The notes beneath the pieces were generated by a model. The model had not been told where the DNA came from, ran no database searches, and saw only the letters and a program-made list of their open reading frames with translations. This document shows, one piece after another, positions 24,201 through 30,472 of a stretch of DNA of 64,000 bases. Source of the stretch: Cyanobacterium aponinum PCC 10605. Its GTDB lineage: Bacteria; Cyanobacteriota; Cyanobacteriia; Cyanobacteriales; Cyanobacteriaceae. Position 1 is the first letter of the stretch. Every line of letters starts with the position of its first letter. The DNA lies in NCBI RefSeq assembly GCF_000317675.1, contig NC_019776.1, forward strand, positions 62,001-126,000. Direction: 5' to 3'. A program made the translations under genes and the position numbers.

Positions 24201-25327
24201 CCAAAATCGTTGTTGACAGACTCTTAGAGCGTCAAAAGATAGACAACGACGGAAAGTACCCAGAAACCATCGCTTGTGTATTATGGGGAACAGATAACAT
24301 CAAAACTTACGGGGAATCCTTAGCTCAAATTATGTGGATGATTGGGGTTAAACCCGTGCCTGATGCTTTAGGGCGTGTCAACAAACTCGAATTAATCCCC
24401 TTAGAGGAATTAGGCAGACCTCGTATCGACGTAGTCGTTAACTGTTCGGGTGTATTTCGTGACTTGTTCATCAATCAAATGGCATTATTAGATCAAGCGG
24501 TGAAAAAAGCCGCCGAAGCCGATGAGCCTTTAGAAATGAACTATGTACGCAAACACGCCTTAGAACAAGCGGAAGAAATGGGCGTTAATATTCGTGAAGC
24601 GGCAACCCGTGTCTTTTCTAATGCTTCTGGTTCATATTCTAGTAACGTTAACCTAGCGGTAGAAAATAGTAGTTGGGAAGAGGAGCAAGAATTGCGGGAT
24701 ATGTACTTAAACCGTAAATCCTTTGCCTTTAACTCCGATAATCCGGGGGTAATGGACGAAAATCGAGCTATTTTTGAGAAATCCTTGAAAACTGCCGATG
24801 CTACCTTCCAAAACCTAGATTCTTCTGAGATTAGCTTAACGGATGTATCCCACTACTTCGACTCCGATCCTACCAAAGTAGTTGCATCTTTGCGCGATGA
24901 TGGTAAAAAACCCTCTGCATATATCGCAGACACCACCACCGCTAATGCCCAAGTGCGTACTCTTTCCGAAACCGTGCGTTTAGATGCTCGTACCAAATTA
25001 TTAAATCCTAAGTGGTATGAGGGTATGTTATCTAACGGTTATGAAGGGGTAAGGGAATTATCCAAACGCCTTGTAAATACGATGGGATGGAGTGCTACTG
25101 CCGACGCTGTGGATAACTGGGTTTATGAGGATACCAACACCACCTTTATCAAAGATGAAGAGATGTGTAAACGGTTGATGGATTTAAACCCCAACTCATT
25201 CCGCCGTATGGTAAGCACCCTCTTAGAAGTTAACGGGCGTGGTTACTGGGAAACCTCAGAGGAGAATATTGAAAGGTTACAACAACTCTACCAAGAAGCA
25301 GAAGATCGCATCGAAGGCATTGAATAG
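21287..25327 (+). CDS. chlH: Magnesium chelatase subunit H
   Basis: A 1346-residue porphyrin-binding subunit that inserts Mg2+ into protoporphyrin IX together with ChlI and ChlD, committing tetrapyrrole to chlorophyll. Family blocks include [29 protein letters not shown] with the conserved HFGTHGS region, [33 protein letters not shown] and [22 protein letters not shown]. Around residues 728-748 a segment with [11 protein letters not shown] is encoded in part by an intergenic-type palindromic repeat (23486-23508). Compared with ChlH proteins I know, this adds about 15 residues, which matches the total length. Frame is intact. A long inverted repeat follows the stop. Confidence 0.97.
23486..23508 (+). 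repeat. chlH: Palindromic intergenic repeat inside chlH, in frame
   Basis: GGGGCGAATGGCATTCGCCC, preceded by GTA, is the same element (one C shorter) as the intergenic palindrome at 14709-14728. Here it lies within the chlH reading frame and encodes part of VGANGIRP, a stretch not expected between the conserved CNLDKD and RD-x-x-VG blocks. Confidence 0.75.
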
Positions 25328-25342
25328 TTAATATAGATTTAT

Positions 25343-25390
25343 GGGTAATAAGTTTTAACTTTTATGAACAAAGGTTTTTTCTTATTACCC
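25343..25390 (+). terminator. chlH: Probable chlH terminator
   Basis: GGGTAATAAG (25343-25352) and CTTATTACCC (25381-25390) are perfect 10-bp inverted repeats with a 28-nt loop ending in a T-run, 15 bp behind the chlH stop. The loop is long for a classical terminator. The structure separates chlH from the DUF262-HEPN cassette. Confidence 0.5.
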
Positions 25391-26612: not shown

Positions 26613-27710
26613 ATGAATAAATTTATTCAAAAACTACAAAACCTTTTAGATAAAGTTGATAATAATATTCAAAGTATAAAGGAAATTACCACAAAAAATC
26701 AGAAGTTAACGGACATAATATTTGGTAATGATTCTACTGTAAAAAATATTTTGAAAGAAAATAATCAATTGGATTTAACTAAAAGTAGTGTAGGATTTGA
26801 TCAATGGAAACGTTATCAACATTGTTCTGTCATTACGCAATTATATGCTATTTATGAAGATTTTGTTGAAGAGTTGATTTCAATTTGGATTGATAATCTA
26901 CCAAATATATTTGAGAAATACTCAGATTTAGGAATGGATTTTCAGAAACAATATATTTTAGGAATTGCTAAATTAATAAAAAGATTAAATAGAAATAAAT
27001 ATCCAGAATTAAAACTAGAAAAATTAATCAACATTCCTAAAAATACAAATATTAATTATAAGTTAGTTCAAGAAGTTTTTACAGATCACCAATATAATTT
27101 GCGAATGAGTGAATTAAATAAATTATTAGACAATGCAGGAATAAAAAATACATCGGATTGGCTACAAAAAAGTAACAGTATTCAGCAATCAATATCAAGT
27201 ATTAATAGTAATCAAACTACTGTTGAAAAAGAATTACAGAGGTTTATTAATTATCGAAATGATGCTAGTCATAATATTCAACAAGATAATATATTAAATT
27301 TTAATGAGTTAATTGATTTTTGTAACTTTATAAATACTATATGTTTTTCTCTTCATGATTTGATTTTATATCAAACTCTTGAAAGAATGATTGCTTTAAA
27401 TAAAATAATCACTTTAGGCCAAATTAGACAATATCGAGATAAATTAAAATCTGCAAGACTAAAAGTAAATAATAGTATTTTATTATCAGTCGGTTTACCT
27501 ACTCTATTAGTCAAGAAAGAAACATCTATTTGTAAATTTGCAAAAATAGAAAAAATAAGTATTGTATCGAATGACCAATATATAGAAAAAGAAGATATTA
27601 AAGTTCCTGAAAAAGAACAAGATATTTGGATTCAATTTAATATTGATGCAAGAAAAAATTGGACAGTATATATATTTAATTTTGATAAACTAGATAGTGG
27701 AACATTTTAA
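26613..27710 (+). CDS. HEPN-domain protein (MAE_28990/MAE_18760-type), putative RNase
   Basis: A 365-residue, mainly helical protein. The HEPN RNase motif Rx4-6H is seen as RNDASH (Arg215 to His220), within FINYRNDASHNIQ. The first helical pair is around residues 60-95 (WKRYQHCSVITQLYAIYEDFVEELISIW), as in the MAE_28990-like HEPN proteins I know from cyanobacteria. A C-terminal ~100-residue region (about 260-365) has no recognised domain. HEPN proteins with this motif cut RNA as toxins or defence effectors. It starts six bases after the DUF262 stop, so the two are almost certainly one operon. Confidence 0.8.
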   Translation: MNKFIQKLQNLLDKVDNNIQSIKEITTKNQKLTDIIFGNDSTVKNILKENNQLDLTKSSVGFDQWKRYQHCSVITQLYAIYEDFVEELISIWIDNLPNIFEKYSDLGMDFQKQYILGIAKLIKRLNRNKYPELKLEKLINIPKNTNINYKLVQEVFTDHQYNLRMSELNKLLDNAGIKNTSDWLQKSNSIQQSISSINSNQTTVEKELQRFINYRNDASHNIQQDNILNFNELIDFCNFINTICFSLHDLILYQTLERMIALNKIITLGQIRQYRDKLKSARLKVNNSILLSVGLPTLLVKKETSICKFAKIEKISIVSNDQYIEKEDIKVPEKEQDIWIQFNIDARKNWTVYIFNFDKLDSGTF

Positions 27711-27835
27711 TGATATACTACAATCATATTTGCTACCTATTTAATCTAAGTATTCGTACCAAAAAAACATTAATACTCTTTTATCAATAAACTTGATTAA
27801 CTTTACATATTATATGTAGTTAGTAAAAGATATTT

Positions 27836-27915
27836 TAGTGGAAAACCTCAGAGAAGAATATTGATCAAATGAATCTCAATTATTATACTAAGAAGGGATG
27901 TGATCGATGATGAAG
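27836..27915 (+). pseudogene. Decayed copy of the chlH 3' end
   Basis: The stretch matches the chlH terminus at 25245-25315. TGG-AAACCTCAGAG-AGAATATTGA differs at only two positions within about 28 bp. After a 5-base length difference, TAC-AAGAAG...GATCG-AT-GAAG follows in the same order. The reading frame is not maintained. It lies 126 bp after the HEPN gene, so the DUF262-HEPN cassette is bracketed by two copies of the chlH end. Confidence 0.6.
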
Positions 27916-27956
27916 TGGTGCTGTGCGATCGAATTTAAGACATTGAGTAATCATTA

Positions 27957-28092
27957 GAGTTGTTGCAAAATAACGAAAAAAACGCCTGAAAACTTTACTG
28001 AGTATAAGTTGTAGCCATTTGACGCTAGAAGTGTTTGTAAATCTTATATAGCAAGGATTTCGAGCATTTTAAGACATTATTTCACAACAAGT
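27957..28092. mobile_element. MITE-like or IS-end element with terminal inverted repeats
   Basis: The left end GAGTTGTTGCAAAATAA (27957-27973) and the right end TTATTTCACAACAAGT (28077-28092) are imperfect inverted repeats about 136 bp apart, with no ORF between. A non-autonomous element or a solo remnant of an insertion sequence fits. A clear target-site duplication is not visible, which keeps confidence moderate. Confidence 0.5.
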
Positions 28093-28169
28093 TTATTAAT
28101 AATAGGGTGGGAAATGAGTACCTTTTTCATTTAATAAAAAAAATTAACTTGAAAATATTGCTTTATTTT

Positions 28170-28313
28170 TTAATCATTAATATCAGGTTTTTTAAAAAAA
28201 TATTGTATATTTGGTAAATTCTGAAAATGATCATCGGATGTTATAATTTGCACTTTTTCTTGTACTGCTGTGGCATAAACAATTGCATCGGCAAGAGTTA
28301 GCTTAAATAAGGC
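28170..28313 (-). pseudogene. PIN-domain (VapC-like) toxin remnant
   Basis: On the minus strand the frame ends with LADAIVYATAVQEKVQIITS, DDHFQNLPNIQYF and a stop. This is the C-terminal half of a PIN nuclease: the LADAIIYA acidic helix and the TSD-x-HF region. An in-frame TGA lies immediately upstream, and the N-terminal catalytic half is missing. It is a broken toxin gene. Confidence 0.65.
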
Positions 28314-28605: not shown

Positions 28606-29352
28606 TTAAAGATTTTCATTAACAAAACGAGGTAAATCTGATAGATTATTAATAAATTCAGCATTTAAGGGTTTACCAATAAAAGCCACATCAAAAAATT
28701 TAAACATTCCACGATGTTGAGGATTATTAATTTCATCATAAAAATTTACCGTTGCAAACCCAACTAAAGGCATATTTTTATGTTCATAACTAATGTTATA
28801 TTTTTCTTTAATGGGATTATCAGAAGTGGCAATTTCTAATAATAATTTCCACGCACAAATTTGCTCACTTTTTTTTCTTAAAGATGTTTTTAATGATAAG
28901 ATTAAACATTTATTTAACTCATTTTCTTTGTTGATACTATAGATTGCTAAATCCATATCTGGTTTTTGAGTTTCATTATCAACTTTAATGGTTACTATAT
29001 CGCTAATTAATTTATATTGTTTAGGATTAGAAGTTACAAAAACATTAGATTTGATAAATTTATTTTCCTTTAAAGTTAGAAATAAATATTTAATAAGAAG
29101 AGAAAAAGCATTTCCTGCAATAGATTTTCTGGCCTGAGATTTATCTTTTATTTCTCCAGCTAAAATTCTCTTGTCTAACAAAATTTCCACGTCATCTTTT
29201 GCTAAAATTAAAATCTTATTGAGATAATCTAGTGATTTTTCTAAACCATATTTATCAATATATTCATCAAGTTTACTGAGAATAGGAATCATATAATATC
29301 TGGACTTGATCATTTTTAATATTTGTTTTTCCTGTTTCAATAAAGAAGACAT
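28606..29352 (-). CDS. Putative type II restriction endonuclease (PD-(D/E)xK variant)
   Basis: A 248-residue protein starting at the ATG at 29352, 22 bp after the HNH gene stop. Longer frames would overlap the HNH gene and are unlikely. It contains QKPDMDLAIYS (about residues 128-138) followed by CLILSLKTSLRKKSEQICAW (about 148-167). The acidic residue, then SLK-x-S-L-R, resembles the active site of type II enzymes I know with an S-x-K version of PD-(D/E)xK. A BsaWI-like type is possible but not certain. The neighbours (HNH nuclease and C5-methyltransferase stub) support restriction. Specificity cannot be read from sequence. Confidence 0.6.
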   Translation of the reverse strand: MSSLLKQEKQILKMIKSRYYMIPILSKLDEYIDKYGLEKSLDYLNKILILAKDDVEILLDKRILAGEIKDKSQARKSIAGNAFSLLIKYLFLTLKENKFIKSNVFVTSNPKQYKLISDIVTIKVDNETQKPDMDLAIYSINKENELNKCLILSLKTSLRKKSEQICAWKLLLEIATSDNPIKEKYNISYEHKNMPLVGFATVNFYDEINNPQHRGMFKFFDVAFIGKPLNAEFINNLSDLPRFVNENL

Positions 29353-29374
29353 AATATTCACTAATTGAATAAAA

Positions 29375-30145
29375 TTAACTGGATTTAATAAAAATATTAT
29401 TTCTATGGTAGGATAAAAAATCAGAAGACGGATAGAATTTTTTAGGAAAATTAATTTCCCTATGATTAAAATTAATAAAATAATTATTAATCGCATTATT
29501 CTTAATTTTATGTATTTGAGGAGAAATGATAACTTTAAATTCCTCATCAAAAGAAATTAATCCTTGATCGAAAGCCTTATCATGAATTGAACATAAACAA
29601 ATACCGTTATGAGGATTTAATCTTGTTTCTTTATTTTTTGACCAAGGAATTATATGACTAGCAACTAATAAAGATACATAATTTAAACTACAAATTGCAC
29701 AATTTTCATTGTAATTAGACAAGACAATTTTTCTGAAAAAATTTTGGTTAATTCTCCTTTTTGTTTTTGTTATTATTTCTTCTCCTATTTTTCGATTGGG
29801 TTCATAAAGATAAATTTCTTGTGATGTATCTCTATCTTTATTTTTATAAAACTCATAAAGTAATTCAGCTTCTAAAAAAAGTTTTTCCCAATTATCATGA
29901 AACTCATCAAAAATAATCTTATCCATTTTAGCGTAATTACCCATTCCTTTTATTCCTCTTTTTTTCAATTCGGGATCTAAACTGGAAAAATTCACCAATT
30001 TAAGAGCTACCGCATTAGGAGTTCTATCAATCATTTTTGATAATTTAATAATATCTGGATTAAGACGATGTAACTTTCCAAAAGGAGTTTGGCAATAAAA
30101 GCTAAAAGCCAAAATCAATTCATGTCTAGTCCAATTTCTTCTCAT
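29375..30145 (-). CDS. HNH endonuclease
   Basis: A 256-residue protein. The N-terminal ~80 residues start RRNWTRHELILAFSFYCQTPFGKLHRLNP, a helical region seen in several restriction-associated HNH proteins. The C-terminal HNH domain has CAIC, then ASHIIPWSK and NPHNGICLCSIHDKAFDQG (about residues 150-205), with all core His/Asn/His positions present. It cuts DNA using a single divalent metal. It is between a methyltransferase fragment and a second nuclease, on the same strand, with short gaps, so a restriction operon is the natural reading. Confidence 0.85.
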   Translation of the reverse strand: MRRNWTRHELILAFSFYCQTPFGKLHRLNPDIIKLSKMIDRTPNAVALKLVNFSSLDPELKKRGIKGMGNYAKMDKIIFDEFHDNWEKLFLEAELLYEFYKNKDRDTSQEIYLYEPNRKIGEEIITKTKRRINQNFFRKIVLSNYNENCAICSLNYVSLLVASHIIPWSKNKETRLNPHNGICLCSIHDKAFDQGLISFDEEFKVIISPQIHKIKNNAINNYFINFNHREINFPKKFYPSSDFLSYHRNNIFIKSS

Positions 30146-30181
30146 ATTTTGTGGTCATATTAATTAACTTAATTTATAGTT

Positions 30182-30472
30182 TTAAAAATCTCTGTTTTTT
30201 CCCAGAGATTTTTTTTTACTCACACCTGCGATCGAAAATGGTTGACAGGGAAAACCAGCACATAATAAATCAAAGTTAGGGATATTTTCAGCAGGAATAT
30301 TGTTTAAATCTTCACAAAATATTTCCCCAAAATTAGCTGAATATGTTTGACAACTATATTTGTTATAATCATTAGAATAAATACAATTTAAACCATTATT
30401 TTCTAAGGCAATTCTAAAACCACCTATTCCTGCAAATAAATCAATGCCAGTTTTTATATCTATTGTGTTCAA
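30182..30472 (-). pseudogene. C5-cytosine DNA methyltransferase, N-terminal fragment
   Basis: A 96-codon frame, probably from a TTG start at 30472, with motif I DLFAGIGGFRIAL and the catalytic motif IV AGFPCQPFSIAG. It then stops right after SKKKSLGKNRDF. A complete C5-methyltransferase needs about 300 residues, with ENV, QRR and the target-recognition domain, all missing. The stop lies in an 11-bp perfect hairpin, and the HNH gene begins 36 bp later, so the rest was deleted. It would be inactive as a methylase. Confidence 0.85.
30184..30213. terminator. Perfect 11-bp hairpin at methyltransferase stub end
   Basis: AAAAATCTCTG (30184-30194) and CAGAGATTTTT (30203-30213) pair perfectly around an 8-nt loop. 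On the plus strand a T-tract follows. The last codons and the stop of the methyltransferase fragment lie in it. It may be an intrinsic terminator or the scar of the deletion. Confidence 0.55.

Follow-up and report, generated by a model that had tools for sequence, protein, structure and literature searches.

How does a small defence-type cassette come to lie directly behind a chlorophyll biosynthesis gene and directly in front of a damaged copy of that gene's last codons? The question is raised by a 64,000-nucleotide stretch of the Cyanobacterium aponinum PCC 10605 genome (contig NC_019776.1, positions 62,001 to 126,000; here called the window), in which a long reading frame is followed by a two-gene cassette and then by a sequence resembling the frame's own 3' end (Table 1). 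From general knowledge of the protein, we take this frame to be chlH, encoding magnesium chelatase subunit H; its C terminus is 84 to 99% identical to those of relatives, and the set of chlH homologues covered 60 genomes. An earlier note on this DNA had proposed that the cassette entered by recombination at the chlH 3' end, keeping the gene in frame and leaving the displaced end behind, as integrative elements do. Neither the list of open reading frames nor Pfam revealed an integrase gene within or adjoining the cassette.

Table 1. Features of the chlH locus, in window coordinates.
Feature	Position	Strand	Basis
chlH (magnesium chelatase subunit H), intact, 1346 aa	21287..25327	+	ORF list
Duplicated chlH 3' end, last 28 codons including stop	25243..25327	+	Repeat comparison, profile match
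Inverted repeat (GGGTAATAAG...CTTATTACCC) 3' of intact chlH	25343..25390	+	Inverted-repeat search, post-stop sequences
DUF262 / GmrSD_N protein, 395 aa	25419..26606	+	Pfam PF03235, E 1.9e-22
HEPN protein (MAE_28990-like), 365 aa, DUF262 partner	26613..27710	+	Pfam PF18737, E 6.7e-40
Left edge of remnant (AAAGATATT)	27824..27834	+	Resembles left edges of decayed copies in G014, G008, G005 (AAAGTATATT / GAAGTATATT)
Displaced chlH 3' end: 30-nt core 27835-27864, insert of about 30 nt, relic stop TAA 27948-27950	27835..27950	+	Repeat and profile matches
TCATTA, first bases of old post-chlH DNA	27951..27956	+	Same in G001, G008, G012, G014
MITE-like insert in old terminator, inverted ends GTTGTTG...CAACAAG	27957..28094		Whole-genome search
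Rest of old post-chlH terminator (TTAATAATAGGGTGGG...)	28095..28132	+	84% to DNA directly behind G008 chlH

The core of the remnant matches 25243-25272 at 27 of 30 positions, with three mismatches, on the same strand and at an offset of 2,592 bp. The match of about 28 bp with two mismatches described in the earlier note is this same match, trimmed. Its local alignment score of 45 compares with a maximum of 33 in 300 first-order Markov simulations of whole chlH against intergenic DNA, and a search of the whole genome with 27800-28110 returned only the segment itself, one mobile-element-like copy, and chlH (E = 3.2e-4). The weaker collinear match that the note carried on to about 27915 fails against the genome's own chlH, where similarity past 27864 is at chance level (11 of 55 positions identical without gaps, p of about 0.2 with gaps). 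Homology past the core does stand against relatives' chlH ends and their decayed copies. An nhmmer profile built from the chlH ends of 14 relatives aligns with the remnant all the way from 27835 to the stop if an insertion of about 30 nucleotides is allowed for (profile positions 39 to 121, E = 0.0015), and a decayed copy in G014, which itself adjoins a DUF262-HEPN-type pair, matches at 82% over 73 bp (E = 7.8e-14) and 82% over 44 bp (E = 3e-6). On this evidence, the remnant spans about 27835-27950. With a core repeat above chance and a profile match running to the stop, the cassette does lie between an intact and a degraded chlH end, and the insert is flanked in the window by long direct target repeats.

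Behind the remnant stands the DNA that relatives have behind chlH. With the MITE-like insert skipped, the remnant and its right flank aligned to the chlH stop and terminator of four relatives with scores of 69 (G008), 60 (G001), 59 (G014), and 57 (G012), compared with 32 or less for shuffled sequence and 22 for the window's own intact chlH end. The empty site in these relatives, some of which carry other cassettes further downstream, has a single copy of the target. Since the right flank of the remnant corresponds to the relatives' post-chlH terminator, the DNA behind the remnant is the old post-chlH DNA, and since this terminator lies behind the remnant and not behind intact chlH, the cassette went in between chlH and the gene's old end. 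What now follows intact chlH is what arrived, including the inverted repeat, which is probably a new terminator brought in with the insert and which differs from the relatives' terminator at this position. The empty-site comparison with relatives, which the earlier note had suggested, bears out entry at the chlH 3' end and supports the view that the old end and its terminator were pushed about 2.6 kb downstream, where they are now decaying; the remnant is too decayed for a donor-versus-resident test.

The region downstream has a further history of its own. The MITE-like element, about 140 bp long, has a second chromosomal copy at 97% (G000:C1:3398402-3398547; matching stretch in the window, 27953-28098). 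The block at 28175-28308 has a counterpart, 86% identical, in G010, where it lies about 280 bp behind a chlH-end copy; two genera with different cassettes in front thus have in common the order of chlH end and then this block. Beside carB, at 28606-30472, are remains of a restriction-modification locus with a BsaWI-like nuclease (PF18643), an HNH nuclease (PF13391), and a 96-amino-acid truncated C5 cytosine methyltransferase; this locus, having no full methyltransferase, is probably dead or reduced.

The cassette is a newcomer. Its G+C content is 23 to 27%, compared with 43 to 44% for chlH. Close homologues of its DUF262 protein (about 50 to 56% identical, among them 54%) sit in other families of the order. 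Within its own family, the only DUF262 match at an E value of 1e-40 or better is broken and lies elsewhere in G014; no close DUF262 homologue is present in the sister genome G001. The window has the two-gene order of GmrSD_N followed by a MAE_28990-type HEPN gene, and the HEPN gene adjoined a DUF262 homologue in all nine other loci examined. The pair is a putative anti-virus-type, or defence, cassette, judged by the similarity of the DUF262 protein to the PADLOC models NsnA (1e-64) and PD-T4-2_A (4e-44).

Similar arrangements recur in the window's own family. At least five of its genomes carry chlH-end copies behind toxin-antitoxin, XisHI, Uma2, or DUF262 cassettes, a list of payloads that takes in the Nostocaceae cases as well. 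Extra decayed chlH ends lie 1 to 5 kb behind chlH in G005 (two copies), G008, and G014, another lies in G010 on a contig without chlH, and weak traces of such copies are present in G001 and G012; elsewhere in these genomes, nothing of the repeat was found beyond short fragments. The payloads ahead of the family copies include HicAB, a RelE-type gene, a pair of 709 and 220 amino acids, and DUF262-HEPN in the other orientation (here and below, payloads were named by sequence inspection unless Pfam is cited). Payload blocks common to several genomes stop at the chlH-end repeats, and two shared blocks stand in opposite order in G008 and G012.

Beyond the family, Nostocales and one Prochloraceae genome also show this arrangement. 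The copies measure 185 bp at 94% (L107), 146 bp (L110), 154 bp (L137), 93 bp (L122), 71 bp (L104), 125 bp (G175), 128 bp (G103), 133 bp at 92% (G138), and 89 bp (G174); G176 has two copies of about 240 to 257 bp, and G177 has copies of up to 402 bp. Among 123 Nostocaceae genomes with a chlH tail match, 10 have a further chlH-end copy within 20 kb downstream, in one of these genomes (G122) as short tandem repeats. The most frequent first reading frames behind chlH, in 76 loci, were Uma2 (10), XisH (8), HigB (6), and IS200-like transposase (4). When 968 genes were tested in the same loci, chlH showed a downstream partial duplication of its 3' end in 9 loci. All other matches were to multi-copy payload or transposase genes, paralogous genes, and unassigned reading frames, and no other recognizable single-copy housekeeping gene among the 968 showed such a duplication.

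The clearest example is L133 (Amazonocrinis), with the gene order chlH, XisHI, remnant, HigBA. The 500 bp that begin at base +1 after its remnant are 92 to 93% identical to what G181 and L122 have from base +1 after their intact chlH. Behind its own intact chlH, again from the first base, L133 matches the XisHI-type post-chlH DNA of L125, L119, L137, and L142. L133 is two alternative post-chlH states stacked, with a chlH end marking the join, and the displaced-end arrangement claimed for the window is here seen directly against relatives lacking the L133 cassette. These comparisons also bear on whether the window repeat could have arisen by chance or be some unrelated short repeat of A/T-rich sequence. 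In favor of chance are the failure of the genome's own chlH to match past 27864 and the absence of an unusual fold in the remnant, but the core is significant genome-wide in the correct place and orientation, the profile match extends to the stop, and the same arrangement is present in many genomes. Chance is exceedingly improbable as an explanation, and it is refuted by the old terminator behind the window remnant together with the empty-site comparison in L133.

How the cassettes enter was judged from the borders of the duplications and from the genes nearby. Integrative elements at the 3' ends of protein-coding or tRNA genes leave the host gene whole, have the displaced end on the far side, and accumulate by tandem accretion. 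The chlH site resembles them in all three respects (in the window, chlH is intact and its displaced end lies beyond the cassette) and differs in that no integrase was found nearby, no fixed core is apparent, and the payloads are very small. Site-specific integration would involve a tyrosine recombinase whose core site lies within the final 86 bp of chlH, with a mimic of the gene end on the element, and the cassettes would be remnants of such elements or would have been moved by them in trans. This classic geometry, the recurrence of the left end (GG)TTAYTGGGAAAC at −85/−86 in the window, G005, G008, G014, L122, and G174, and a step in divergence at the same position in L110 all favor it. However, a PF00589 search around chlH was negative in 16 genomes (G001 and 15 that have remnants), a recombinase motif scan of 114 loci was negative at a sensitivity of about half (10 of 18 known recombinase loci found), and the units, which can be as short as 0.37 kb, then contain no gene for mobility. 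The duplications end on the right at the stop codon (mostly −1 to +10) and begin on the left at −43, −60, −86, −122, −146, −152, −175, −223, or −399, and because they start at such different points in different genomes, there is no fixed attachment core at both borders. The lack of a nearby integrase and the variable left ends therefore disfavor fixed-core integration, which we consider unlikely, and the note's comparison with integrative elements cannot be kept if an integrase was meant. The −85/−86 left end does recur in two distant groups and the −122 left end in three genomes, which could hint at a preferred site, and common descent of junctions explains at least part of this recurrence; the recurring left end near −85/−86 keeps fixed-core integration alive.

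A different origin of the remnants would be foreign rather than displaced DNA: a donor segment of chlH end plus downstream genes would have joined the locus behind a cassette already there. A Nostoc chlH matches the L122 remnant at 97%, compared with 83% for the chlH of L122 itself; the remnant of L137, too, is closer to a different genus, with home placement rejected by a tree test (p = 0.016); and the window remnant has GATC and insert features in common with copies in another genus, g5. The tree tests, which used short remnants and gave no consistent signal across them, did not reject home placement for L110, G175, L107, G103, or L122 (p = 0.42), so that the foreign best match of the last was not upheld as foreign origin by the AU test. 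An apparent mosaic that had suggested import of the G174 tail proved to be an artefact of an indel in an ungapped comparison. The DNA behind the window remnant matches post-chlH DNA of the sister genome G001 as well as of g5 and therefore need not be foreign, and we give addition from a donor little credence. Internal tandem duplication of the chlH end, with cassettes later inserted between the copies by other means (for example, linked to insertion sequences), would agree with the 200-bp tandem repeats of chlH end including post-stop DNA in G122 and with the insertion sequences and RAYT-like genes behind chlH in several genomes. Against it, similarity halts at the stop codon in most genomes, and in L133 and its relatives two alternative post-chlH units are seen one behind the other; such an origin is quite improbable.

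Two precedents bear on integration by homology. In Escherichia coli, circles with part of a gene end integrated by single crossover and thereby duplicated 109 to 950 bp of lacZ (PMC3240628), and restriction-modification systems insert with long, variable target duplications according to PMC3031569 (citing Nobusato et al. 2000 and Furuta et al. 2010). These precedents of single crossover and of long duplication therefore favor homologous, integrase-free integration. We hold with moderate confidence the combined reading that small toxin-antitoxin and defence cassettes have repeatedly landed at the chlH 3' end in Cyanobacteriales and that they enter by RecA-type single crossover with the chlH end as homology arm. 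As in single-crossover integration or homology-facilitated illegitimate recombination (PMC3240628), integration of a circle or fragment that includes a partial gene end would duplicate that end; that case concerned a laboratory plasmid in E. coli and not a cyanobacterial route. The likeness to the restriction-modification insertions, as described in PMC3031569, lies in the selfish or defence gene pairs, the long and variable duplicated flanks, the dispensability of an integrase, and a duplication that permits later amplification or loss. Relative to that description, the chlH insertions differ in that one gene end is used repeatedly across many genera, copies accumulate in series, and the duplication extends to the stop codon, making them a variant of insertion with long target duplication.

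For integrase-free homologous integration, the incoming DNA would be a cassette linked to part of a chlH 3' end, which would recombine with the resident chlH end by an ordinary RecA-type single crossover; alternatively, homology could act at one end and illegitimate joining at the other. By either route, chlH would remain whole and the cassette would follow its stop, with a second chlH end on the cassette's far side. With repeated events, cassettes would line up in an array with decaying chlH ends between them, and recombination between the repeats could swap or delete cassettes. The strongly conserved last codons of chlH would make a good shared homology arm, and similarity may stop at the stop codon because only the coding part is conserved between different donor and recipient species. 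More tentatively, chlH ends may act as natural integrase-free homology arms by which toxin-antitoxin and defence modules move between cyanobacterial species and stack behind an essential gene, in an integron-like array that has no integrase.

Chromosomal integrons hold arrays of cassettes rich in toxin-antitoxin genes, with related repeats between them and an order that differs among genomes. The chlH arrays share these properties and differ in that no IntI was found near the locus, the repeats derive from the end of a host gene, and there is no consistent hairpin. An attC-like hairpin was dropped as a candidate: copies in G005 and G010 and one Nostocales copy fold somewhat better than shuffled sequences, the window remnant does not (DNA fold z = +1.65), and no hairpin was consistent across copies. 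In the Pseudomonas aeruginosa core defence hotspots cDHS1 and cDHS2, defence genes vary between fixed core neighbors with no obvious mobile element, homologous recombination has been proposed, and how defence hotspots between core genes form without visible mobile elements is an open question (PMC10250203). Unlike those hotspots (PMC10250203), the chlH insertions leave readable scars, the chlH ends, that mark each event. The insertion seen in the window is one case of a hotspot for toxin-antitoxin and defence cassettes that is widespread and apparently undescribed, as a limited literature search returned nothing relevant on a chlH hotspot. Each event leaves a datable scar, so that insertions could be ordered, dated, and traced to donors across hundreds of genomes, and the scars could be used to locate cassette borders and new defence or toxin-antitoxin genes.

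Several further copies were noted. An unassigned 166-amino-acid gene (L132:12686-13183, minus strand) may be another gene with this type of end duplication, as a copy of its last 33 bp, 94% identical, lies 1.6 kb downstream. The tandem array of G122 (L158) consists of three copies of about 160 to 200 bp, which include the final 61 bp of chlH together with about 100 bp from beyond the stop. In L045 (G036, contig C48, 1771-1885, reverse strand), a 109-bp chlH 3' end with 81% protein identity over 37 amino acids sits behind a small toxin-antitoxin-like gene pair, on a contig without the main chlH gene. The two chlH ends of G176 (L155), 10 and 15 kb behind chlH, are well preserved at 91 to 95%, and between them lie methyltransferase-like and other defence-type genes.
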